From positions 1 to 38,224 of the forward strand of contig CAJQHR010000046.1 in NCBI GenBank assembly GCA_905478225.1: DNA of 38,224 nt. The letters are read 5' to 3'. Numbering within the stretch: the first letter of the stretch is position 1; the number at the start of each line of letters is the position of its first letter. Below the pieces are notes generated by a model. The model searched no databases. It was not told where the DNA came from and saw nothing but the letters and a program-made list of their open reading frames with translations. Of the stretch, positions 8,636 through 19,037 are shown in pieces. The DNA comes from an uncultured Crocinitomix sp. (lineage in GTDB: Bacteria > Bacteroidota > Bacteroidia > Flavobacteriales_D > Crocinitomicaceae). Both the position numbers and the translations under genes were made by a program.

Positions 8636-8680
8636 TGTAACATTTGTTACAACATTTAACACCGTTTCCATTTACTTTTG
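8636..8680 (+). promoter_or_regulatory. CRP-type operator 1 and -7 box (regulator gene)
   Basis: TGTAACATTTGTTACA at 8636-8651 is a perfect palindrome of 7-base arms around TT. A perfect Bacteroidota -7 box, TACTTTTG, follows at 8673-8680, starting 29.5 bases from the palindrome centre. This places the operator about 41 bases upstream of the expected start, the class II activator position of CRP-family proteins. It precedes the CRP/FNR gene itself, suggesting autoregulation. Confidence 0.85.
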
Positions 8681-8697
8681 AAAGAAATTAACAGGAC

Positions 8698-9693
8698 ATG
8701 TTTAAGAAAGGCTTGAAATTATACAGCATCTTTAAGTCAAAATGCCCGCATTGCCAAGAAGACGATTTTTTTGAAGGTTCTCGATTTAAAGCTAATGTGG
8801 CAGAAAAATGCAATGTTTGTGGCGAAAAATTTAGCAAAGAACCGGGTTTTTATCAGGGGTCATATTATGTAACGTATGCACTTGGAGTAGCTATTTTTGT
8901 TGCGGTTTGGGTAGCGAGTCGCGTTTTGTTTCCTGAAATGAGCATGCCGATATTGGCAACAATAATTGTTTCAGCTTTATTATTAATGACACCATTTTCA
9001 TATTATCTTTCGAAGATAATATGGGCAATTTTTTTTTCCGTTATAAACCACGAACAAAAAATGAGAGAACTACTTCTTGAGAATTACGAGCACCTTTTTG
9101 AGATTGAATTATTAGATGAAATCAAAAAAGTGGGGTATATAAAAAATATTCCGGAAGGAGATGTCATCATAAATATTGGCGATACTGTTCGAAATATGCC
9201 ACTATTGCTTGAAGGTGCCATAAAAGTATCTCGCTTGGATGACGACGGGGATGAATTATTGCTTTATTATCTGGAAAAAGGAGACGTTTGTGCCATGACA
9301 TTAACCTGCTGCACGGGAAATTCTATTAGTGAAATTCGCGCGGTTGCAGAAATGGATTCTAAAATAATCATGGTTCCCGTTCAAAAAATGGCAGACTGGG
9401 TACGTGATTATGAAACGTGGCGCACATTTGTTTTTGAAAGTTATAATTCAAGATTCAAAGAAATGCTAGAGGCCATTGATAACTTGGCGTTTTTAAACAT
9501 GCATGAACGAGTACTCAAATATTTAAAGCATAAAGTGATCGTAACAAAAGACACCTTCTTGTACGTCACGCATCAAACAATTGCTTATGATTTACACACG
9601 TCTCGTGTGGTTATTTCAAGAATTCTAAAGAGTTTAGAAAAGGAAGGTAAATTGAAATTAGATCGCAACAAGATCGAATTTCTTGATTTTTAA
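8698..9693 (+). CDS. DUF983 zinc-membrane domain fused to CRP/FNR regulator
   Basis: The reading frame joins two proteins that are normally separate. Residues 1-115 are DUF983: a zinc ribbon with C16-x2-C19 and C38-x2-C41, then two membrane helices (about 57-77 and 85-110). Residues 122-331 are a complete CRP/FNR regulator: a cyclic-nucleotide-like beta roll, a cysteine cluster C198-x5-C204-C205, a dimer helix, and a winged helix whose recognition helix contains TSRVVISRILK. Met122 (9061) is a natural start for a free 210-residue regulator. The join depends on a run of nine T at 9029-9037: with ten T, DUF983 would end at 9078-9080 with a family-like RYK tail and the two genes would overlap. 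A membrane-tethered regulator, a sequence error, or slippage are all possible. Operator 1 lies upstream. Confidence 0.8.
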   Translation: MFKKGLKLYSIFKSKCPHCQEDDFFEGSRFKANVAEKCNVCGEKFSKEPGFYQGSYYVTYALGVAIFVAVWVASRVLFPEMSMPILATIIVSALLLMTPFSYYLSKIIWAIFFSVINHEQKMRELLLENYEHLFEIELLDEIKKVGYIKNIPEGDVIINIGDTVRNMPLLLEGAIKVSRLDDDGDELLLYYLEKGDVCAMTLTCCTGNSISEIRAVAEMDSKIIMVPVQKMADWVRDYETWRTFVFESYNSRFKEMLEAIDNLAFLNMHERVLKYLKHKVIVTKDTFLYVTHQTIAYDLHTSRVVISRILKSLEKEGKLKLDRNKIEFLDF

Positions 9694-9703
9694 TTACTGC
9701 AGA

Positions 9704-10522
9704 ATGAACCTATTCATTTTAATTAAGAATAACAGTTTGGATCCTTCCATTGTGAATTTTTCTAGCTCGCTATTTAACGGCACTGAGACCAAAATTCATT
9801 TATTAAATATTGTTCCAGCGAATGGAGAAGTACCCCTTCAAATGAATGGAAGAATATTGGAAAACTGTACAGAGTTTGATTTGTCTCACTATGAAAAACA
9901 AGCCGAAACGAACTTGACATATCTAAACAGTATTAAAGCCGATTTAATAGTTGAGCGTCATTCGTATGCCGGAAATGAAATTAGCATTTTAAAGGATTAT
10001 ATTAAAACACATCAAATTAATGTGATTGTTGGGGGAGCACATAAAACAACCGCAAGGGAGAATGCTTTTGTCAAAACATACCCATCAAGGATAATTGAAA
10101 ATACGGAATTACCGTATTTAACAATTAAATGTAATCGAGATAATTTCACCCCCGAAAGAATTGCCTTAATTGGCGATTTCACGGCTCCGACTGTTGAAAA
10201 TTTTGAAGTAATTAAAGCGCTTGCTACACGTCATCAAAGTGAATTTACATTGGTGAAATTCCATACACCAAGCGATAAAAGATCCGAAGTTGATATTTAT
10301 AAAATGATGCAAGCATTTGCAGATGCCAATAAGCTCACTGCCAACCTAAAAATTATTCGCAGTACTGGTAAAGAAAGCGGAGTTTCAGAATTGCATAAAG
10401 ACGGATTAACGGATTTAATTGTCGTTGCAAGAACACATAAATCAACCTTTTTTAAACTATTTAATCAGGGTGAACAAGCGAACATTGTCAACCATGTGTA
10501 CGCACCAATTTTTATTTATTAG
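9704..10522 (+). CDS. Universal stress protein family protein
   Basis: 272 residues from the ATG at 9704, ten bases after the regulator stop. The chain is two alpha/beta USP-like halves: about 1-145 (starting MNLFILIKNN, with a hydrophobic strand and the HQINVIVGGAHK segment) and about 148-272 (starting ERIALIGDFTAPTVENF, ending with DLIVVARTHKS). The classical G-x2-G-x9-G-[ST] ATP-binding motif is not evident in either half, so nucleotide binding is uncertain. It is co-transcribed with the regulator and the YeeE/YedE gene (three-base gap downstream), which ties it to the sulfur island; its exact role there is unknown. Confidence 0.75.
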   Translation: MNLFILIKNNSLDPSIVNFSSSLFNGTETKIHLLNIVPANGEVPLQMNGRILENCTEFDLSHYEKQAETNLTYLNSIKADLIVERHSYAGNEISILKDYIKTHQINVIVGGAHKTTARENAFVKTYPSRIIENTELPYLTIKCNRDNFTPERIALIGDFTAPTVENFEVIKALATRHQSEFTLVKFHTPSDKRSEVDIYKMMQAFADANKLTANLKIIRSTGKESGVSELHKDGLTDLIVVARTHKSTFFKLFNQGEQANIVNHVYAPIFIY

Positions 10523-10525
10523 TTT

Positions 10526-11086
10526 ATGATAGATGCAATTCTTCAACCATGGCCTTGGTATGTTTCAGGCCCTTTAATCGCATTGGTGATGTTATTTTTA
10601 CTGCTTACGGGAAAAAACTTTGGCATGTCGTCCAATTTACGAACTATGTGCAGCATTGGGGGGGCAGGTAAAGTGGCTGATTTTTTCAAGTTTGATTGGA
10701 AACGCCAAGTTTGGAATTTAATGGTGGTGGTTGGTGCGGTTGCGGGGGGCTTTGTTGCGGCGCATTTCTTGTCGGCTGATACGGTAATAGATCTCAATCA
10801 AGATACGGTTGTTGCGCTTGAATCTTCAGGGTTTATTAATCCTGGAGAAAAATATGTGCCTGATGAAATTTATGGTTGGGAAGCCGTAACATCCTTTAAA
10901 GGGTTAATGATTTTAATAGTTGGAGGTTTATTTATTGGTTTTGGAACAAGATGGGCTGGAGGGTGTACTTCTGGTCATGCCATTAGTGGTTTAAGTAATT
11001 TGCAATTACCTTCTCTTATTGCTGTAATCGGCTTTTTTATTGGTGGCATTGTCATGACTTTTTTTATACTCCCTTATCTTCTCTAA
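10526..11086 (+). CDS. YeeE/YedE family sulfur transporter, N-terminal half
   Basis: An integral membrane protein of 186 residues with about four to five helices. The family's cysteine-bearing loops are present: TMCSIGGAGK (about 42) and RWAGGCTSGHAISGLSNLQ (about 150). Family members of the YeeE/TsuA type import thiosulfate by passing it along conserved cysteines. Here the transporter is split in two: this gene carries the first half and the next gene (DUF6691) the second, an arrangement common in Bacteroidota and Proteobacteria. It starts three bases after the universal stress gene, so it is in the operon driven by operator 1. Confidence 0.88.
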   Translation: MIDAILQPWPWYVSGPLIALVMLFLLLTGKNFGMSSNLRTMCSIGGAGKVADFFKFDWKRQVWNLMVVVGAVAGGFVAAHFLSADTVIDLNQDTVVALESSGFINPGEKYVPDEIYGWEAVTSFKGLMILIVGGLFIGFGTRWAGGCTSGHAISGLSNLQLPSLIAVIGFFIGGIVMTFFILPYLL

Positions 11087-11108
11087 TACCCCAAAAGCAA
11101 CATAACAA

Positions 11109-11522
11109 ATGAAATATTTAAAATTTATAGCAATCGGATTCGTATTTGGTATTATCATGTATAAGTCGCAGGCTGTATCTTGGTTTCGCATATATGAAAT
11201 GTTCCGTTTTGAAGCCTTTCACATGTATGGTATTATCAGTTCGGCTTTAATGCTTGGAATTGCTTTTGTGCAAATCATTAAAAGAAGAAACATTAAGAAC
11301 ATTTACGGTGAAGAAATTCAGTTCACACCAAAAGCAAAGTCGGTTACTCGTTATCTATTGGGTGGCGGAATTTTTGGTTTAGGTTGGGCCTTGGCTGGAG
11401 CATGCCCCGGACCCATGTACGTGCTTATTGGGGCCGGGGCGTATTCGATTTTAATTGTGCTTGCGGCAGCAATATTGGGCACTTTTTTATATGGACTAGT
11501 CAGAAGTAAGTTGCCGCATTAA
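11109..11522 (+). CDS. DUF6691 / YeeE-YedE second half
   Basis: 137 residues with four hydrophobic helices. The signature GLGWALAGACPGPMYVLIGAGAY (about 95-117) carries the conserved cysteine of the second repeat of YeeE/YedE transporters. It presumably forms a heterodimeric sulfur-compound channel with the preceding gene product in the inner membrane. The gap to the previous gene is 22 bases with no promoter, so the two are in one operon. Operator 2 follows directly after the stop. Confidence 0.85.
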   Translation: MKYLKFIAIGFVFGIIMYKSQAVSWFRIYEMFRFEAFHMYGIISSALMLGIAFVQIIKRRNIKNIYGEEIQFTPKAKSVTRYLLGGGIFGLGWALAGACPGPMYVLIGAGAYSILIVLAAAILGTFLYGLVRSKLPH

Positions 11523-11534
11523 TCGTTTGTATGT

Positions 11535-11578
11535 GTAACAATTGTTGCTGCCATTTCCACCCAGCTTTATCAACTTTG
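11535..11578 (+). promoter_or_regulatory. CRP-type operator 2 and -7 box (TauE/SafE gene)
   Basis: GTAACAATTGTTGC at 11535-11548 differs from the palindrome at one base. A -7-like box, CAACTTTG, at 11571-11578 starts 29.5 bases from the centre, the same as at operator 1. The expected transcript start is about 15 bases before the ATG at 11598. Confidence 0.7.
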
Positions 11579-11597
11579 TATCAAATTATTTTATTGA

Positions 11598-12401
11598 ATG
11601 GAATTGGCAGAAATCTTAGGTTTTCTTGGGGCATTAATCATTGGAATTGTATTGGGTTTAATAGGCGGTGGCGGATCAACTTTAACCGTTCCAATTCTTG
11701 TTTATGTAATGGGTATTAGCCCCGTAATTGCTACTGCATATTCTCTTTTTGTTGTTGGTAGTTCAGCTCTTGTAGGTGCAATTATTAATGCTAAAAAGAG
11801 AATGGTTGATTTTCGAATGGGAATTGTATTTGCCATTCCTGCCTTCTTAGCCGTTTTCTTAACACGTAAATATTTGGTTCCCGCAATTCCAAATGAATTG
11901 TTTAGTGTAGGAGATTTTCTGGTCACAAAAGACATTGCAATAATGGTGTTTTTTGCCATCATAATGCTTTTAGCTTCCTATTTCATGATTAAAAAACGGA
12001 AGGATACAACCACCGAAGAGACCACCGTTCAATACAATTATCCATTTATAATTATCGAAGGAATTGTTGTTGGAGTTTTGACCGGAATCGTTGGGGCAGG
12101 GGGCGGATTTTTAATTATTCCTGCACTTGTGCTTTTTGCGAAATTGCCAATGAAAAAAGCAGTGGCCACATCATTATTAATCATTGCAGTCAAATCACTT
12201 ATCGGCTTTTTAGGAGACGTGCAAAACACTCGCATTGATTGTGTTTTTCTGTTAACCTTCACTGGAATATCAATCGTAGGAATTTTTATTGGACTCTATT
12301 TAAATAAATTTATTGATGGTAAAAAGCTCAAAAAAGCTTTCGGATGGTTTGTTTTGATTATGGCTATTTATATTATCCTAAATGAAGCCGTGTTGAGTTG
12401 A
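11598..12401 (+). CDS. TauE/SafE sulfite/sulfonate exporter family protein
   Basis: Inner-membrane transporter of 267 residues with about eight helices in two repeats. Each repeat begins with the family's glycine-rich motif: GLIGGGGSTLTVPILVYVMG (about 21-40) and GIVGAGGGFLIIPALVLFAKL (about 162-182). TauE/SafE proteins export sulfite or organosulfonates, or move other sulfur anions; the neighbouring sulfite dehydrogenase makes sulfite the best guess. It has its own operator and promoter (operator 2) but stands immediately downstream of the YeeE/YedE pair. A longer frame upstream of the ATG is not supported. Confidence 0.9.
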   Translation: MELAEILGFLGALIIGIVLGLIGGGGSTLTVPILVYVMGISPVIATAYSLFVVGSSALVGAIINAKKRMVDFRMGIVFAIPAFLAVFLTRKYLVPAIPNELFSVGDFLVTKDIAIMVFFAIIMLLASYFMIKKRKDTTTEETTVQYNYPFIIIEGIVVGVLTGIVGAGGGFLIIPALVLFAKLPMKKAVATSLLIIAVKSLIGFLGDVQNTRIDCVFLLTFTGISIVGIFIGLYLNKFIDGKKLKKAFGWFVLIMAIYIILNEAVLS

Positions 12402-12419
12402 TCTATCATTTGAAATAGG

Positions 12420-12463
12420 GTAACAATTGTTACTGATAAAGGGTTTCAAATGAAATACATTTG
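12420..12463 (+). promoter_or_regulatory. CRP-type operator 3 and -7 box (rhodanese gene)
   Basis: GTAACAATTGTTAC at 12420-12433 is a perfect palindrome. TACATTTG at 12456-12463 is a perfect TAnnTTTG -7 box, again starting 29.5 bases from the palindrome centre. It drives the rhodanese gene at 12528. Confidence 0.85.
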
Positions 12464-12527
12464 TACCAGCAATAAGTTAAATTACCTTTTTTGAACAACA
12501 AAGAAGGATAAAAAAAGAGAAATAAAA

Positions 12528-12824
12528 ATGGGATTTTTAGATAAATTAAGAGGAGCACTAGTTGGAGAACAGGTTGATTATTCAGCTCTAATTAAAGATG
12601 GTGCAGTAGTAGTAGATGTGCGCACAAAGGAAGAATTTAGATCTGGGCATGTGAAAGGGAGTAAAAACTTTCCGCTTCAGACTTTAGGGAATAAAGTGAA
12701 AGAATTAAAAGGAAAAACAGTGGTTTTAGTTTGCAGATCTGGCGCAAGAGCGAGTCAAGCTCAGCGTATGCTAGCAAACAATGGAATTACAGCGCACAAT
12801 GCAGGTGCGTGGCAAAATATTTAA
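12528..12824 (+). CDS. Single-domain rhodanese
   Basis: A 98-residue cytosolic sulfurtransferase. The rhodanese fold is complete: VVVDVRTKEEFRSGHVKGS at about 27-45 and the active-site loop CRSGARAS with catalytic Cys69. Such short rhodaneses carry sulfane sulfur as a Cys-persulfide between donors such as thiosulfate or glutathione persulfide and acceptors. There is no signal peptide. It has its own operator/promoter (operator 3) and is followed by a terminator at 12943-12981, so it is probably a single-gene transcript. Confidence 0.92.
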   Translation: MGFLDKLRGALVGEQVDYSALIKDGAVVVDVRTKEEFRSGHVKGSKNFPLQTLGNKVKELKGKTVVLVCRSGARASQAQRMLANNGITAHNAGAWQNI

Positions 12825-12885
12825 GCTTATAGTTTACAACGAAGAGAAGGAAAAAGTTAATAACGATTAACGAGGCGAGATGGGT

Positions 12886-12935
12886 GTTAGTTGGCCATAG
12901 TTTTTAGTTTAGAATAATTTTGATGTCCAACTAAC
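12886..12935. repeat. Inverted repeat in the 3' region of the rhodanese transcript
   Basis: GTTAGTTGG at 12886-12894 is repeated inverted as CCAACTAAC at 12927-12935, extended by one T/A pair (12885 and 12936), with a loop of about 32 bases. It precedes the terminator. It might form a structured 3' UTR; no function is known. Confidence 0.4.
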
Positions 12936-12942
12936 AAAAATT

Positions 12943-12981
12943 ATCCGCTCTGTATGCCTTTGGTGTAAGGGCGGATTTTTT
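12943..12981 (+). terminator. Rho-independent terminator after rhodanese gene
   Basis: The stem ATCCGCTCT (12943-12951) pairs with AGGGCGGAT (12968-12976), nine pairs including one G-U, and is followed by a run of six T (12976-12981). It separates the 12528 rhodanese from the lipoprotein rhodanese at 13003. Confidence 0.8.
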
Positions 12982-13002
12982 AACTTTATAAAAAAAAAGA
13001 AA

Positions 13003-13431
13003 ATGAAAACAATTTTTATAGGATTATTGGCAAGTGCTTTTGTGTTGATGTCATGCGCACAAACGGAGTCAACAAATGGCCAAACCTCTTCTTCAAATGA
13101 TACTCATCCTGTTGAAAATCAGGTTGAAACTTCAGCTGAGGTCAAACGCGTTACGAAAGCTGAGTTTAAGACTTTTTTAGCAGAAAATGCTAACGCCCAA
13201 TTAATTGATGTACGAACGCCGGGTGAATTTGGATCGGGCGCAATTGAAGGAGCCGAGAATATCGATTATAATGATGCTAATTTTGAAAGTAACATCAATA
13301 ACCTTGACAAAAATGCACCGGTCTTAATTTATTGTAGAAGTGGCAATAGAAGCTCTAAGGCGCTTAAGATATTTGAGGCAAATGGATTTACACACGTTCT
13401 TGAATTAGAGGGCGGTTATTTAAACTGGTAA
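13003..13431 (+). CDS. Rhodanese-domain lipoprotein
   Basis: 142 residues. The signal ends in lipobox LMSC (Cys18), so the protein is anchored in the periplasm or outer membrane. After a Ser/Asn/Glu-rich linker (about 20-46), a full rhodanese domain follows: LIDVRTPGEFGSGAIEGAENI at about 67-87 and the active loop YCRSGNRSS with Cys111. It would act on sulfane sulfur outside the cytoplasm. It overlaps the next gene by one base (stop TAA, start ATG), so translation is coupled. Unlike the other units of the island, no GTAACA-type operator is visible in front of it. Confidence 0.9.
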   Translation: MKTIFIGLLASAFVLMSCAQTESTNGQTSSSNDTHPVENQVETSAEVKRVTKAEFKTFLAENANAQLIDVRTPGEFGSGAIEGAENIDYNDANFESNINNLDKNAPVLIYCRSGNRSSKALKIFEANGFTHVLELEGGYLNW

Positions 13432-13673
13432 TGAAGGACGCTTTAAAATCATCTTGGATGCTCTTCGGCATTGCATCCTTAACATTAGGTTTAGCACCTT
13501 TTACACCCGAGCCGCATTTATGGGGTAAAATAAAATGGATACTTGGTGGAGCAGAAGGAATGCAGCCAGTTGACTGGTTCGACTTTTTAATGCACGGCGC
13601 ACCTTGGATCCTTTTAATTATTTCTGGTGTACTCCATTTAAAAGACGGATTAACAAAAACGACCGAAGTATAG
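13431..13673 (+). CDS. Small two-helix membrane protein
   Basis: 80 residues with two hydrophobic segments (about 8-24 and 56-68) around a short loop containing PHLWGKIKWILGGAEG. No named family is recognised with confidence, though similar small proteins accompany rhodaneses in Bacteroidota. It is translationally coupled to the rhodanese lipoprotein by a one-base overlap, which suggests a joint role at the inner membrane. A strong terminator follows. Confidence 0.75.
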   Translation: MKDALKSSWMLFGIASLTLGLAPFTPEPHLWGKIKWILGGAEGMQPVDWFDFLMHGAPWILLIISGVLHLKDGLTKTTEV

Positions 13674-13692
13674 ATTTAACAATGATTGATTT

Positions 13693-13729
13693 AATAACCG
13701 TTCTCTTTTAGAGGGCGGTTATTTTTTTT
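13693..13729 (+). terminator. Rho-independent terminator
   Basis: A 13-pair stem (13693-13705 with 13711-13723, two G-U pairs) with a five-base loop, followed by a run of eight T. It ends the 13003-13673 transcript. Confidence 0.9.
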
Positions 13730-14008
13730 GAACCCTTCTGAATCCTGAATAATATTTCAAGGGGTCGTTAATTAACTTCAGAATGTGCACAATGTCCAGT
13801 TATCATAGTATTCAAAAACATCAGTCATGTTTATTTTCGAGTATAATGAAGCTTTCAGAGACTTTGGTTTGCTTGGTGGTAACTTCTGGAAGACCACAGA
13901 AGAACTTAAAAAAGACACCGTAGTTTTTGGTTGGTCGATAAGCCTTTTGAAGCATGAGTAAAAGGAACATGCGTAATGCTTCAATCTATCATTAAAAGAA
14001 TAGCGCTT
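13730..14008. other. Intergenic region with possible gene remnant
   Basis: About 280 bases between a terminator and the end of the rhodanese-hydroxylase gene. A 44-codon frame at 13827-13961 (+) begins MFIFEYNEAFRDFGLLGG and looks protein-like in composition but matches nothing I recognise. A 68-codon frame on the other strand covers the same bases and is less convincing. It may be the remnant of a lost gene. Confidence 0.3.
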
Positions 14009-15814
14009 TTATTTCTCGTCTGGCGTTTTTCTAAATCCAGAAAAAATCAATCCGAAAAATCCTTTCGGATATTTCTCAATCCCGTCAAAACCAAGGGTAA
14101 TATCTCGCCCACTTGATGGAATATAATTCTTACGAAAGATATAATCCCAGATACTAAATGAAATGCCAAAATTAACGCCGTAACGCCTGTTCTTTGGCAA
14201 TTCTTTAGCATGGTGCCAAATGTGCATTTTAGGATTGTTAAAGATGTATTTAAATGGCCCATAATCCCAGCCTACATTGGCATGATTGATATGTCCAATT
14301 GCTATTGAAATATAAAACACGATATAAGCCATTTCTGGAGTAAATCCTCCAATTAACATGACTGTAATATATTTCATTGGCGTGTAGAATACGTTCTCCA
14401 TCCAATGATAGCGTAAATGCCCTGCGAATCCCATCTCTTCAATGGAATGGTGTACCTTATGAAATCGCCATAAAAAGTCAAATCTATGCAATAATACGTG
14501 TGTAAACCATTGTATAAAATCTGTTGCTATAAAGAAAATGATAAGTTGTGCCCATACGGGTAAACTCCCTAAATCAATCAGCGCATAGGAAGTGGCATCT
14601 CCGCCAATTAAGTCATGGAAAAATTTCGCCGTAACTTCTGAAAAAGACATGAAAATGATCAACTTAAAAATATAAAAGTTGAAGAACATGAAAAAAGCAT
14701 CAATCCAAAAATCTTTGCGAATTCGAGGTTGATCTTTCCGCCATGGAAAAGCAATTTCTAATAACCACACGACTAGTGATAAGACCACTAATAGCCAAAA
14801 GTAGTTCACATACCAAGGGCTAACTTGAAATGTAATTTCGTTCCAGGTATAAGATGCGAAATTGCGAAACCCAGCCCAAAAAACTTCACCGTATGTAGCC
14901 ACATATTCTTCAACCGGCAACGCAACAACGCCTGTGTCAATTGCCAATTCGCTGTGGTAACCCCACTCAATCCAAGAGCCATCAAAATTCCCAACATTAG
15001 GGAAGTTTAAAACTTCGGAAAGCACGAATGCTGAAAATGCCGACCGCACGCCCGAATGACAATAAACGATAATCTCTTTGTCTTTTGTTATGCCTTTAGA
15101 TGCATAAAGTTCCGTTAATTCTGTTTCTGAAAGTAAGAGCTGATCACCATGATAATCAATATTTTCAGCCCAATCTATATGAATGCTGTTCGGAATTCTT
15201 CCTGCTTTAAAGGCGCCTTCTTTCTGAAACTTGCCTTCAAATTCATCCTTATTTCGAGTGTCGATTAATAGGATGTTCGGATTATCTACGGCGGCTTTCA
15301 TTTCCTCTAACTCAACCAATCTCACTTCATTTGTTGGGCTTGCGGAAAACGTGTATTCGGCGGCAGGTTGAACAGTGTTTATTGAATCAATCTGTGAATT
15401 TCGATCTCCCCATGCTTTAATTCCACCATCCAATAATTGAACGTTTTCGTGCCCATAATGAGTTAATACCCACCATAAACGACCGGCATCACTTCCCCCC
15501 TTATGGTCATACACAATTAAATGGTCTGCAGCTGAAAGTCCTAATGTGGTCATTAAGGCCTCCATTTTTTCACGACTTGCAATCAACCCATCAAAGGCGT
15601 CATCTCTTTTTGAAATATCGTTCCGAGTCACATGCAGCGCTCCAGCAATTGAATCTTCAAGAAACTTCTCGTCTTTTGAAATATCAATCACCACGTAATC
15701 CTGAAAATTCTGTAGTAAATCATCAGCAGAAATAACCGAAGACGAAGTGTTTTGCTCAAAACTAGTGCTTGTAATCAAAACTAGTCCAAAAAATAAGGAA
15801 AGGTATTTTTTCAT
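14009..15814 (-). CDS. Double rhodanese fused to fatty acid hydroxylase
   Basis: 601 residues in one frame. A signal peptide (1-20) is followed by two rhodanese domains of the mercaptopyruvate-sulfurtransferase type: about 27-145, with Asp103 where a cysteine would sit (inactive), and about 160-295, with the active loop YCHSGVRS and Cys252. A membrane helix (about 338-355) then leads into a membrane di-iron hydroxylase of the sterol desaturase/fatty acid hydroxylase family (about 370-590), with histidine boxes H439-x3-H443, H452-x2-HH456 and H531-x2-HH535. The rhodanese half is therefore probably periplasmic, whereas the histidine boxes of such hydroxylases usually face the cytoplasm. The gene is divergent from the sulfite dehydrogenase genes and shares operator 4 with them. 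The fusion is unusual; its substrate is unknown. Confidence 0.9.
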   Translation of the reverse strand: MKKYLSLFFGLVLITSTSFEQNTSSSVISADDLLQNFQDYVVIDISKDEKFLEDSIAGALHVTRNDISKRDDAFDGLIASREKMEALMTTLGLSAADHLIVYDHKGGSDAGRLWWVLTHYGHENVQLLDGGIKAWGDRNSQIDSINTVQPAAEYTFSASPTNEVRLVELEEMKAAVDNPNILLIDTRNKDEFEGKFQKEGAFKAGRIPNSIHIDWAENIDYHGDQLLLSETELTELYASKGITKDKEIIVYCHSGVRSAFSAFVLSEVLNFPNVGNFDGSWIEWGYHSELAIDTGVVALPVEEYVATYGEVFWAGFRNFASYTWNEITFQVSPWYVNYFWLLVVLSLVVWLLEIAFPWRKDQPRIRKDFWIDAFFMFFNFYIFKLIIFMSFSEVTAKFFHDLIGGDATSYALIDLGSLPVWAQLIIFFIATDFIQWFTHVLLHRFDFLWRFHKVHHSIEEMGFAGHLRYHWMENVFYTPMKYITVMLIGGFTPEMAYIVFYISIAIGHINHANVGWDYGPFKYIFNNPKMHIWHHAKELPKNRRYGVNFGISFSIWDYIFRKNYIPSSGRDITLGFDGIEKYPKGFFGLIFSGFRKTPDEK

Positions 15815-15837
15815 TGTGCCATTTTTACTTGAATTCC

Positions 15838-15911
15838 TAAAGTTAAGAAGCCCATTGCGGAATGAGTGTAACTATTGTTACTTAAAAATAAAAAAGAATT
15901 TCATTATTTTG
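15838..15911. promoter_or_regulatory. Divergent CRP-type operator 4 with two -7-like boxes
   Basis: GTAACTATTGTTAC at 15868-15881 (one mismatch to the palindrome) lies between the divergent hydroxylase-rhodanese and sulfite dehydrogenase genes. TTATTTTG at 15904-15911 (plus strand) and TAACTTAG at 15845-15838 (minus strand) each agree with TAnnTTTG at seven of eight positions. Both start exactly 29.5 bases from the palindrome centre. One site may therefore control both directions. Confidence 0.75.
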
Positions 15912-15994
15912 GTAAGCTAAACTCTAATCATCTCATTTAAAAGGTGTGATTCGTCAAAGATGAATATCATTTTAGTGGAGAAAAAGGAGTAATA

Positions 15995-17254
15995 GTGTTC
16001 CAATCAAATCAACGTATGGATAAAAAGAATAATTCAAGAAGAAACTTCATTTCTAAATCAGCATTAGCTGCTTTTGCTGCCTTGGCGGGAACCAAAATTG
16101 TGTTTGGCGAAAATTTCCCGAGTGAACTTGAACCAATTGGTTTAGATGAACTGGAAACACCAGAAGGCATTCCCGGAAAAAGTGATGCCTTAACCATTTT
16201 AAACAATAAACCTTGGAATGCAGAAACGCCTCCCCATTTGTTAGATCCGGAAATTACACCAGCCAATTTAATGTTTGTGCGCAATAACGGGATTCCGCCA
16301 ACTGAATATGATTTGGAAAAATGGACTTTAACCATTGAAGGAGAAGCAGCCCAACAAAAAAAGACATACACGTTAAAAAAATTGTACGATAATTTCGCTC
16401 ATTACACCTATGACCTCACCCTTGAGTGTGGAGGAAATGGACGTGGAGAATTTAATCCACCGGCAAAAGGGAATCAATGGGGATTAGGAGGCGTGGCTTG
16501 CACGCGTTGGACAGGGGTTCGATTGAAAGATGTGTTAAATGATGTCGGTTTAAAAAGCACGGCGGCTTATATTGGTTATTATGGTGCGGATACGCATTTG
16601 TCTGGTGATTCGTCAAAAGTTGTTATTTCAAGAGGCGTACCAATTCAAAAAGCCATGGAGGACGAATCGTTAATTGCTTGGGCAATGAATGGTGAAGCAA
16701 TTCCAAAAATGAATGGATATCCGTTACGATTGGTGATGGGGGGTTGGCCTGCTTCAGTTTCTGGTAAATGGCTGACTAAAATTGTAATTAGAGATAAGGA
16801 ACATGATGGGCCAAAAATGGGTGGACAATCTTACCGAATACCGAAGTATCCCGTTCCGCCTGGAACAAAAGTACCGGATGAGGACATGAAGATTATTGAA
16901 TCTATGCCGGTTAAATCCATTATTACTTATCCTAAAACGGGCGCAATAATTGGAAAGGGTCAGTCTTTCGAAGTTCGCGGTCATGCTTGGGCGGGTGATT
17001 TAAAAGTGAAAGCAGTTATGGTTTCAATTGATTTTGGAGTGACGTGGCAAAAATGCGAATTGAATCCGCCAAAAAATAGATTAGCTTGGCAAAGGTGGAA
17101 AACACGAATTACCTTACCAGAATTTGGATATTATGAATTGTGGGCGCGAGCAATAGATGAAAATGGAAAAGGGCAACCTATGGTTTTACCAGGTTGGAAT
17201 CCGAAAGGATATTTAAATAATGCGTGCCATAGATTAGCAGTAAAACAAGCTTAA
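15995..17254 (+). CDS. sorA: Sulfite dehydrogenase molybdopterin subunit (SorA-like)
   Basis: Periplasmic molybdenum enzyme that oxidises sulfite to sulfate. A Tat signal (SRRNFISK followed by an Ala-rich helix) shows export of the folded protein. The molybdopterin ligand is Cys145 (numbered from the GTG) in TLECGGNGR. The domain order is oxidoreductase molybdopterin-binding (about 90-270) followed by a dimerisation Mo-co-oxidoreductase domain (about 300-415, with VKAVMVSIDFGVTWQKCEL). AAAGGAG six bases before GTG 15995 supports that start; the ATG at 16016 is the alternative and keeps the whole Tat signal. The gene overlaps the cytochrome subunit by one base, as in SorAB pairs. Operator 4 lies upstream. 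Other sulfite-oxidase-fold enzymes share these motifs, so the substrate is inferred from context. Confidence 0.88.
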   Translation: MFQSNQRMDKKNNSRRNFISKSALAAFAALAGTKIVFGENFPSELEPIGLDELETPEGIPGKSDALTILNNKPWNAETPPHLLDPEITPANLMFVRNNGIPPTEYDLEKWTLTIEGEAAQQKKTYTLKKLYDNFAHYTYDLTLECGGNGRGEFNPPAKGNQWGLGGVACTRWTGVRLKDVLNDVGLKSTAAYIGYYGADTHLSGDSSKVVISRGVPIQKAMEDESLIAWAMNGEAIPKMNGYPLRLVMGGWPASVSGKWLTKIVIRDKEHDGPKMGGQSYRIPKYPVPPGTKVPDEDMKIIESMPVKSIITYPKTGAIIGKGQSFEVRGHAWAGDLKVKAVMVSIDFGVTWQKCELNPPKNRLAWQRWKTRITLPEFGYYELWARAIDENGKGQPMVLPGWNPKGYLNNACHRLAVKQA

Positions 17255-17754
17255 TGACTGATCAGGATAAAGAAAAAGTTTACGAACAAGCCATTAAACA
17301 AGCAAAGAACACCATTAACGTGGCATCTGTGCTGGTCCTTGCGGGGGTAGTTTTTATGATTCAATTAACCTATTTCCCTCAGTTTTTTTCTTCCACAGAT
17401 CAAAACATTTCCGCATTTGACACCACCGCAGTCGATCCTATGGTCATGACTATGGATCTTGATCCAACCGAGATTGAAAATGGAATCCATGTTCCTTCAG
17501 GATTAATTGTGGATGATGGTGTTGATTTGGTGATTCGAACCTGTGGCGTCTGCCATTCACTGGGTCTTGTGACACAGAACAAGGCAGATCGAGAGGGCTG
17601 GAAGGATATAATTGTTTGGATGCAAGAGACTCAGGGTCTTTGGAATTTGGGCGCAACAGAGGATGCTATTCTAACCTATTTAGCTAATAATTATGCACCC
17701 GTTGATGAGGGAAGAAGAAGGAATTTGGAAGTATTAGAATGGCACGACCTCTAA
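17254..17754 (+). CDS. sorB: Membrane-anchored monohaem cytochrome c (SorB-like)
   Basis: 166 residues. One N-terminal membrane anchor (about 22-42) is followed by a linker and a cytochrome c domain with a single haem site, C97-G-V-C100-H101. A plausible methionine ligand sits in IVWMQETQGLW. It would accept electrons from the molybdenum subunit and pass them to the respiratory chain. Start and stop of the two genes overlap (TAATG), so translation is coupled. A longer N-terminus and membrane anchor distinguish it from the soluble SorB of Proteobacteria. Confidence 0.88.
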   Translation: MTDQDKEKVYEQAIKQAKNTINVASVLVLAGVVFMIQLTYFPQFFSSTDQNISAFDTTAVDPMVMTMDLDPTEIENGIHVPSGLIVDDGVDLVIRTCGVCHSLGLVTQNKADREGWKDIIVWMQETQGLWNLGATEDAILTYLANNYAPVDEGRRRNLEVLEWHDL

Positions 17755-17831
17755 AGTGAAATTTGACCCCTAATTTGCAGTTTTTGGATACAACCAACTA
17801 GCAATGAATATCTAATCGCATTCAAGTTTCT

Positions 17832-17874
17832 GTAACAAATGTTACTTTTTTTGTTCGCACCAATGTTTAGTTTG
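17832..17874 (+). promoter_or_regulatory. CRP-type operator 5 and -7 box (SQR pseudogene)
   Basis: GTAACAAATGTTAC at 17832-17845 is a perfect palindrome (with T at 17831). The -7-like box TTAGTTTG at 17867-17874 starts 28.5 bases from the centre, one base less than at the other sites. It controls the now broken sulfide:quinone reductase gene. Confidence 0.75.
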
Positions 17875-17893: not shown

Positions 17894-18566
17894 ATGACTC
17901 ATATACTAATTATTGGAGGAGGCACTGGCGGCATCATGACCGCAGCACAACTTCTCAAAAAAGGAAATGTAAAAGTAATGCTACTCGAACCAGCAGAATT
18001 TCATTATTATCAACCCGCATGGACTTTGGTAGGCTCGAATACCTATAACTTCGAAAAAACAAAACGCACAATGGCATCTGTCATGCCAGACGGGGTGAAC
18101 TGGATAAAAGAATTTGCAGACAAGTTTGATCCAGCAAATAATTCAGTAATTACCACCGCCGGAACAGAAATCAACTATGATTATTTAGTGGTTTCACCAG
18201 GTATTAAAATAGACCCTTCTTTAGTTGAAGGATTATCAGAGGCCATGGATAAAGGTGTGGTATGTAGTAATTATACGGGATCCTCAACACACTTGGGAAG
18301 TCCTAAGAAACTTCAAAGGAGGCACGGCTTTATTCACACAACCCGCAACACCAATAAAATGTGGTGGCGCTCCTCAAAAAATCATGTATTTGGCGGAGGA
18401 ACACTTTAAAAAAGTTGGAGTGAGAGGTAAAACAGATGTTGTATTTGCAACACCTGGGGGTGTAATTTTTGGAGTTAAACGCATTGCTAAAACGTTAATG
18501 GAAGTGGTAAATCGTAAAGACATTAATTTACGTTTTCATCATAAATTAGTGAGAGTTGATTTTTGA
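17894..18566 (+). pseudogene. Sulfide:quinone reductase, truncated and frameshifted
   Basis: The intact enzyme oxidises sulfide to sulfane sulfur and passes electrons to quinone. The first 128 codons (17894-18276) are a good SQR start: FAD-binding GGGTGG, the FHYYQPAWTLVG segment, and a first cysteine in GVVCSNYT. The frame then breaks at a GGG run (18277-18279). Removing one G restores DPQHTWEVLRNFKGG and continues to a second cysteine in PIKCGGAPQKIMYLA. The restored frame ends at 18566 after HHKLVRVDF, only about halfway through a normal 380-400-residue SQR, so the third cysteine and the C-terminal part are missing. Sequence beyond belongs to another gene. Operator 5 precedes it. Confidence 0.88.
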
Positions 18567-19037
18567 CTCAATAAGTTTAGCTGAAGTGGGAGCAAATTAT
18601 CTCAAACTCAAAAAAGTTGAAAAGGGATTTCAATCCCCAAGTTTTTCAATGAAGGATATTAATGGCAACCTTGTTTCTTTGTCAGATTTTAAGGGAAAAT
18701 TAGCCCAAATAGATATTTGGGCGACTTGGTGTGCACCCTGTATGGCAGAAATACCAGATCTGAAAAAACAGAGGAATATTTTGCAGGAAAAGAAATTGTT
18801 TTTGTGAGTATCTCAATAGATAATCAAAAAGAGAGTTGGAAAAAAATGATTGAAGAAAAAGAAATGCGAGGCGTTCAATTATTTGCTGATGATCCAAACG
18901 ATCCTTTTATTAAGGCCTATGATGTTCAGGGAATTCCACGTTTTATACTTTTAGATCGAAAAGGTAAAATAATTGACCCAAACATTACACGTCCATCAGA
19001 TGAGGACTTAATTCCGCTGATAGAAGCAAATTTATAG
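18567..19037 (+). pseudogene. TlpA-like thioredoxin C-terminal remnant
   Basis: Starting without its own start codon directly after the truncated SQR, the sequence encodes the tail of a TlpA/peroxiredoxin-type thiol-disulfide protein: FQSPSFSMKDINGNLVSLSD, then the active site WATWCAPC. A second frameshift follows: a run of six A at 18763-18768 has lost one base, since seven A restore LKKTEEYFAGKE. The remaining frame (VFVSISIDNQKESW..., to 19037) holds the thioredoxin cis-proline segment QGIPRFILLDRKG. The N-terminal part is missing. The SQR-TlpA border at about 18565 is best explained by a deletion that joined two unrelated genes. Confidence 0.82.

Follow-up and report, generated by a model that had tools for sequence, protein, structure and literature searches.

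A predicted CRP/FNR-type sulfur regulon with palindrome and -7 box composite promoters in an uncultured Crocinitomix sp.

Contig CAJQHR010000046.1 of an uncultured Crocinitomix sp. (Crocinitomicaceae, Bacteroidota; assembly GCA_905478225.1) was analyzed over positions 1 to 38,224 of its forward strand, and this whole stretch is referred to as the window. The window contains an island of sulfur genes in which a CRP/FNR protein is encoded beside sulfur transporters, rhodaneses, a SorAB-like sulfite dehydrogenase and a sulfide:quinone reductase (SQR) (Table 1). A preliminary description had named this cluster a sulfur-oxidation island controlled by five CRP-type operators. The sulfur genes are indeed present, but the cluster is better labeled as one for sulfide, sulfite and sulfane-sulfur handling than for oxidation alone. 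The five palindromes of the form GTAACA-N2-TGTTAC lie where they had been placed, three perfect and two with one mismatch, and all are outside open reading frames (ORFs) of at least 80 amino acids. The offsets given for the -7 boxes, 29.5 bases from the palindrome centre and 28.5 at the fifth site, are also correct, with TTTG at +33.5 from the centre at sites 1-4 and at +32.5 at site 5. A TAnnTTTG-type box had been claimed for every site; TTTG is found at all five, but only sites 1 and 3 match TAnnTTTG exactly. The NtcA-type form GTA-N8-TAC fits sites 1, 3, 4 and 5, and site 2 ends in TGC. The distance from palindrome to -7 box is fixed in the window and in relatives, and may correspond to a class II operator centre at about -41.5 from the predicted start.

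The operators and their -7 boxes were then treated as one composite element, GTAACN3TGTTNC-N25/26-TTTG, with the reversed pattern as control. The window contains 5 copies of the composite, and none arose when its sequence was simulated 300 times with an order-1 Markov model. When up to 2 mismatches were allowed, 7 palindrome matches were found in the window against a shuffle mean of 1.64, and 0 of 100 shuffles reached 7. A scan of the whole genome (3.52 Mb, 98.5% complete), which the preliminary description had proposed, placed all 3 perfect palindromes of the genome and all 5 composite matches in the island, and the reversed control gave 0 composite matches. The bare palindrome with up to 1 mismatch occurs at 24 places versus 20 for the reversed pattern. 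The other 19 near-matches are at control level; 16 are inside ORFs of at least 80 amino acids, and none of the 19 has TTTG at 32.5 or 33.5 on either strand. A looser composite finds 9 places, the island's 5 and 4 others. Chance origin of the sites is ruled out by the shuffles, the Markov simulation and the reversed and scrambled motifs, and a regulon scattered over the genome is rejected for this genome, in which perfect and composite matches are confined to the island.

Table 1 Operators, -7 boxes and genes of the sulfur island in the window.
Feature	Position	Strand	Details
Operator 1 GTAACATTTGTTAC	8637..8650	+	0 mismatches; upstream of DUF983-CRP operon
-7 box TACTTTTG, promoter 1	8673..8680	+	TActTTTG, exact TAnnTTTG
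DUF983-CRP/FNR fused ORF	8698..9693	+	Pfam, alignments, model; CRP part from about 9061, helix TSRVVISR, Cys198/204/205
Universal-stress-like protein, operon 1	9683..10522	+	No Pfam match; named by eye
PmpA-like (C-terminal half) YeeE/YedE sulfur transporter, 186 aa	10526..11086	+	Pfam Sulf_transp; matches the C-terminal part of the NCBIfam TsuA model under its cut-off
PmpB-like (N-terminal half) YeeE/YedE transporter, 137 aa	11109..11522	+	DUF6691/Sulf_transp
Operator 2 GTAACAATTGTTGC	11535..11548	+	1 mismatch; upstream of TauE
-7 box CAACTTTG, promoter 2	11571..11578	+	CAacTTTG
TauE/SafE sulfite exporter family	11598..12401	+	Pfam
Operator 3 GTAACAATTGTTAC	12420..12433	+	0 mismatches; upstream of rhodanese
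-7 box TACATTTG, promoter 3	12456..12463	+	TAcaTTTG, exact TAnnTTTG
Rhodanese, 98 aa	12528..12824	+	Pfam
Rhodanese, 142 aa, without own operator	13003..13431	+	Pfam
Rhodanese (two stretches) fused to fatty-acid hydroxylase	14009..15814	-	Pfam; divergent from site 4
Operator 4 GTAACTATTGTTAC	15868..15881	+	1 mismatch; upstream of sulfite dehydrogenase
-7 box TTATTTTG, promoter 4	15904..15911	+	TTatTTTG
SorA-like sulfite dehydrogenase	15995..17254	+	Best NCBIfam model SorA, below its cut-off
SorB-like c-type cytochrome subunit	17254..17754	+	Below NCBIfam cut-off
Operator 5 GTAACAAATGTTAC	17832..17845	+	0 mismatches; upstream of SQR
-7 box TTAGTTTG, promoter 5	17867..17874	+	TTagTTTG
Broken sulfide:quinone reductase (SQR) gene	17894..18566	+	Two frames, C-terminal part absent

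The operators keep their spacing to the -7 box and recur together with the regulator and the sulfur genes in relatives. This was measured in named Bacteroidota loci, namely the 80 best of 578 CRP relatives, which were picked for the regulator alone and with sites ignored. By reading of the titles, most are from Flavobacteriaceae, and Flexithrix dorotheae (Cytophagales) is included. These loci contain 136 palindromes with up to 1 mismatch, whereas each of four control motifs, reversed or scrambled, occurs 3 times. Of the 136, 82 are followed by TTTG, with 79 counts at +33.5, 5 at +32.5 and a mean of 2 at the other offsets seen; a composite site is present in 57 of the 80 loci. The logo of 105 sites selected for TTTG reads TGTAAC-wwwT-GTTACtG-N20-TAnnTTTG. 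Conservation extends to the TA of its -7 box (T 0.87, A 0.89), to the T at the front and to the TG that follows the palindrome, none of which was used for selection. The Bacteroidota promoter form is recognizable in these sites and is exact in 2 of the 5 window sites. Other half-sites were tried in the same loci and rejected: TTAACA-N2-TGTTAA, which we take to be the PrfA box, gave 8 sites, 0 with TTTG; a GTCACA-type half-site gave 1 site, 0 with TTTG; and a GTGACA-type half-site gave 10 sites, 6 with TTTG, its one-mismatch forms being able to overlap the real motif. The composite was also searched in a stricter form, with TTAC as the right arm and a spacing of 26, in a phylum draw of 118 genomes and was found at 12 places in 8 of them: 3 in the genome studied here, 8 in 6 of the 26 genomes listed under the same class and 1 in one genome listed under the same phylum only. 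The phylum draw alone says little, because its control gave 5 places in 4 genomes.

The genes behind these sites are mainly of the TauE, rhodanese and PmpA-like kinds. The 80 loci give 84 composite rows, which are 82 distinct sites (two were counted on both strands), and 79 have a downstream ORF. These ORFs cluster into TauE (28), a rhodanese-containing group (20, many of them resembling metallo-beta-lactamase/rhodanese proteins on inspection by eye), PmpA-like (6) and sulfate-permease-like (5, by eye) proteins. The smaller clusters are DUF983 (4), SQR- or FAD-type (3, one by match and two by eye), fatty-acid hydroxylase (2) and, by eye, cytochrome-like (2) and TolC-like (2), with 7 singles. 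A tally per gene was made over 119 loci, in which L079 and L168 are one contig. A composite site precedes 34 of 60 TauE, 9 of 21 DUF983, 6 of 20 PmpA-like, 3 of 12 rhodanese, 2 of 6 SorA, 1 of 6 SQR and 1 of 5 stress-like genes, and none of the 4 hydroxylase fusions, 3 RDD genes, 20 operon-internal PmpB-like genes or 7 SorB genes. The CRP gene itself is preceded by one in 1 of 114 cases, perhaps because the operator often precedes DUF983 or sits further off. Sites upstream of orthologous sulfur genes in relatives, the conservation on which the preliminary description had made its reading depend, were thus found.

Thirty loci listed for the composite alone contain 31 sites. Open frames cover 15 of them, and 10 of the 15 lack the TTAC right arm; among the 15, the ones before a TauE-like and an SQR-type gene are probably real too. 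Of the remaining 16, 12 precede TauE, rhodanese, DUF983, SorA, thioredoxin, cytochrome c or YgaP-like genes (by Pfam or by eye), including the window's own, and 4 precede Tll0287-like, Fib_succ_major, doubtful or no ORFs. The same composite element stands before cytochrome c (L137), YgaP-like membrane (L138) and Tll0287-like (L140) proteins named by Pfam, and before cytochrome-like proteins named by eye (L190 and L192).

The arrangement was also compared within the genus and the family. From a same-genus draw of 8 genomes, palindromes were compared in G047, G060, G097, G011 and G031, and G071, G081 and G089 were left out. Gene order is common to G047, G060 and G097, and each keeps 4 of the 5 palindromes, with TTTG at the right spacing for 3, 4 and 4 of them, respectively. 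The palindrome lacking in G047, at the threshold used, is the one of SorA; in G060 and G097 there is no SQR within the stretches examined beyond SorB. In G011 and G031 the genes are arranged differently, and palindromes lie close to the CRP gene. G031 has at least 2 kb in common with a Crocinitomix catalasitica contig, which points to a probable origin of the window in Crocinitomicaceae (Flavobacteriales). Operator 1 is a perfect palindrome at the same place in L076, L077 and L078. In the relatives' composite sites the spacer between palindrome and TTTG is variable and both ends are kept. In 40 family regions, 37 palindromes were counted versus 0-13 for eight controls, and 25 with TTTG versus 0-1. 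The deviation GTTGC in the right half of the TauE operator is the same in seven regions of two genera (L075-L078, L083, L095 and L099), as though selection favoured a weaker right half. G097 carries a second CRP paralog (36% identity; L133:855-1436) behind SorB, where the genome studied here and G047 have SQR.

Several gene structures of the island deserve separate description. Short YeeE relatives are known as PmpA (C-terminal half) and PmpB (N-terminal half), according to PMC11582611, and the application of these names to the 186- and 137-aa pair is our own tentative assignment. DUF983 and CRP form one frame here and two overlapping genes in same-genus relatives. The two frames meet in a T-rich run, so the fusion may be real or a sequence error. 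The SQR region at 17894-19037 consists of two frames without the C-terminal part and runs into a TlpA-like tail, and the SQR of G047 is one long frame. The genome's other SQR-like gene (contig C18) reads in three frames, which hints at assembly errors. The hydroxylase part of the ORF at 14009-15814 matches the OlsE model below its cut-off. A lipid hydroxylase may belong to a sulfur regulon, because a hydroxylase ORF without rhodanese has its own composite site in L215 and L243.

The candidate binder is the CRP part of the fused protein. PF00027 (40.7 bits) and PF13545 (30.7 bits) both score over cut-off, and the cyclic-nucleotide (cNMP)-binding-like barrel followed by a C-terminal Crp-type helix-turn-helix (HTH) places it in the CRP/FNR superfamily. 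The AlphaFold2 model of this part has a predicted local distance difference test (pLDDT) of 86.7 and a predicted template modelling score (pTM) of 0.62, and its Foldseek neighbours include Thermus CRP, 3dv8, DNR, NtcA and HcpR; by sequence, the first solved relative is 3dv8 and the second is NtcA. The match to the NtcA equivalog (NCBIfam TIGR03697) reaches 47.5 bits versus a cut-off of 244.95. The recognition helix is TSRVVISR, as had been read, and the R-V pair that it was said to share with NtcA is confirmed by the alignment of SRVVISRIL with STRVTVTRLL. At this helix position E. coli CRP has a glutamate, which reads GTGA, and a valine there is associated with GTA. One Crp-type HTH of the genome scores over the Pfam cut-off, that of this protein, and the other match is MarR-like by eye. 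A second cNMP-domain protein, on contig C65, has a different helix. The local helix was absent from the other Crp-type matches read in the genome, a set without the third, weak cNMP match on contig C44. Among relatives, L112 and L113, which carry an RE helix, have no palindromes; the RE-versus-RV contrast is too small to use, and L110 with RV also has none.

The same protein carries three conserved cysteines. All 41 aligned proteins have Cys198 and Cys204, and 39 of the 41 have Cys205. In the model they lie in a loop and short helix after strand 6, its lowest-confidence part, which we take as the nucleotide-pocket (effector) segment. A putative role of these near-invariant cysteines in sensing thiol or persulfide is plausible. 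Sulfane-sulfur sensors are characterized by persulfidation or a polysulfide bridge at their sensor cysteines; the observation here is the near-invariance of the three cysteines. cAMP-CRP has an Arg-Ser phosphate-binding pair in its cAMP pocket, and no such pair is seen by eye in the segment CAMTLTCC..SEIRA, which was read without residue alignment to CRP itself. The [4Fe-4S] sensor of FNR uses an N-terminal cysteine cluster, which is not in the CRP part, whose only cysteines are Cys198, 204 and 205.

These data support the interpretation in the preliminary description, from which we infer a mechanism. A dimer of the CRP/FNR protein (8698-9693) would bind TGTAAC-N4-GTTACtG at about 40 bases ahead of the transcription start, so placed that the right half of the palindrome abuts the -33 region, with the flanking TG near -33. 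Class II activation of the Bacteroidota housekeeping promoter TAnnTTTG would follow. Class II geometry is known from NtcA promoters, with the operator GTA-N8-TAC at about -41.5 (PMC3898017), and the housekeeping promoter has TAnnTTTG at -7 (PMC7366714). The units activated would be the protein's own operon (DUF983-CRP, the stress-like protein and the PmpAB-like pair), TauE, rhodanese, the SorAB-like sulfite dehydrogenase and SQR. Operator 1 precedes DUF983-CRP, which implies autoregulation, with the transport genes in the same operon. The signal may be a reduced sulfur species sensed via the near-invariant cysteines, a suggestion drawn from the targets and the cysteines only. With the signal set aside, a dedicated sulfur regulon that the local CRP/FNR protein binds and activates is in our judgment very probable; binding, activation instead of repression, and the inducing signal are all predictions from sequence.

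Several observations weigh against this dedicated regulon. The -7 boxes at sites 4 and 5 of the window are degenerate, SQR is broken in this genome, and the genome has a second match to the fused DUF983-CRP protein at E <= 1e-20. A palindrome precedes SorA and SQR in 5 of 6 relatives each, with TTTG in 2 of 6 and 1 of 6. Composite matches outside the island are 1 of 4 in G047 and 3 of 7 in G097, and G047 has two further palindromes without TTTG on another contig, one of them ahead of a gene judged cytochrome-like by eye. Palindromes are missing from many of the 40 family regions despite a CRP relative; of relatives with the RV helix, L110 has none and L111 only a distant one with one mismatch. 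Over 200 family genomes, the bare perfect palindrome occurs 154 times in 96 genomes versus 127 in 93 for the control, and the composite 167 times in 100 genomes versus 53 in 41, about threefold. With this control, composite matches far from sulfur genes are partly chance and single ones need care. Finally, a composite site is lacking from the examined stretch of 23 of the 80 loci, although a CRP relative is encoded there. This last count also speaks for a different reading, in which another transcription factor uses the operators and has the CRP gene as just one target among several; binding is not proved by proximity or by an operator ahead of the gene. That reading is nevertheless very improbable. 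The 14-mer has two-fold symmetry, takes the form of the NtcA operator and keeps a fixed, class II-like distance, the local helix matches that of NtcA, the genome's one over-cut-off Crp-type HTH is this protein, and the sites are enriched around the CRP gene in loci picked only for that gene.

The CRP protein could instead repress these promoters and be released by its signal. CstR, a known regulator of sulfur species, is a repressor by the title of a paper in the references of PMC9774590, and SoxR of Hyphomicrobium is one by paper title, whereas FisR, also a sulfur-species regulator, is an activator (PMC9774590). Here 22 bases separate the end of the palindrome from the -7 box, with one fixed spacing across relatives, which is the class II activation pattern, and the consensus near -33 is TACTG and not the TTTG of a -33 box, so repression appears unlikely. 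A further alternative concerns the signal, which would be oxygen, nitric oxide (NO) or general redox state; it is compatible with the CRP protein as binder and activator. DNR and HcpR, which sense NO or redox, are among the structural neighbours, and in relatives some composite sites lie before genes for thioredoxin, cytochrome c and Tll0287-like proteins. The commonest targets, however, are TauE, rhodanese-type and PmpA-like genes, and we regard such a signal as possible but the lesser expectation.

If the activation by the CRP/FNR protein is true, the system offers a candidate switch by which heterotrophic Bacteroidota would control their genes for sulfide, sulfite and sulfane sulfur. In this genome the targets are marked exactly by the composite element (5/5, control 0), which looks like the unusual Bacteroidota promoter in an activator-dependent form with a single fixed spacing. 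A wider proposal is tentative, and we hold it to be somewhat more doubtful than probable: the local protein may belong to a Bacteroidota class of CRP-fold activators that have abandoned cyclic nucleotides and sense persulfide or polysulfide via Cys-x5-Cys-Cys in the former nucleotide pocket. Acting on TAnnTTTG promoters through an operator of NtcA type, such activators would govern the oxidation of sulfide and sulfite in heterotrophic flavobacteria and related bacteria.

Regulons of CRP/FNR proteins, operators of the NtcA form and the -7 box are each already known. Their combination, its sulfur targets in Bacteroidota and the cysteine-bearing pocket were not found, and no such switch was seen named, in the open-access literature listed, whose longer result lists were covered in part. 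NtcA, the cyanobacterial CRP-family nitrogen activator, is alike in operator form at sites 1, 3, 4 and 5, in the R-V of its helix and in the class II-like distance to the core promoter. It differs in that the targets here are sulfur genes, the core promoter is TAnnTTTG and not TAN3T, NtcA has no cysteine at the three positions in the alignment, and identity is 20-24% in the Foldseek rows. PDB 3dv8, the putative Crp/Fnr regulator EUBREC_1222 of Eubacterium rectale, has cysteines at the Cys198 and Cys204 positions, but isoleucine at the third and the helix SHREVITRML. The HcpR regulon of Desulfovibrio uses TTGTGA-N6-TCACAA (PMC545781), and an HcpR structure, 9day of Porphyromonas gingivalis, is among the sequence and structure relatives. 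The HcpR regulon, also one of a CRP/FNR protein, was likewise deduced from palindromes that precede sulfur and energy genes, with another half-site and with sulfate-reduction and hybrid-cluster genes as targets. CstR, BigR, FisR and SoxR control SQR, persulfide dioxygenase or rhodanese genes, and BigR and SoxR are ArsR-type and not CRP-family regulators. Like the switch proposed here, CstR, BigR and FisR (PMC9774590) and SoxR respond to reduced sulfur species, whereas CstR is CsoR-like and FisR is of the Fis family, both outside the CRP family that the Crocinitomix regulator belongs to (same source).

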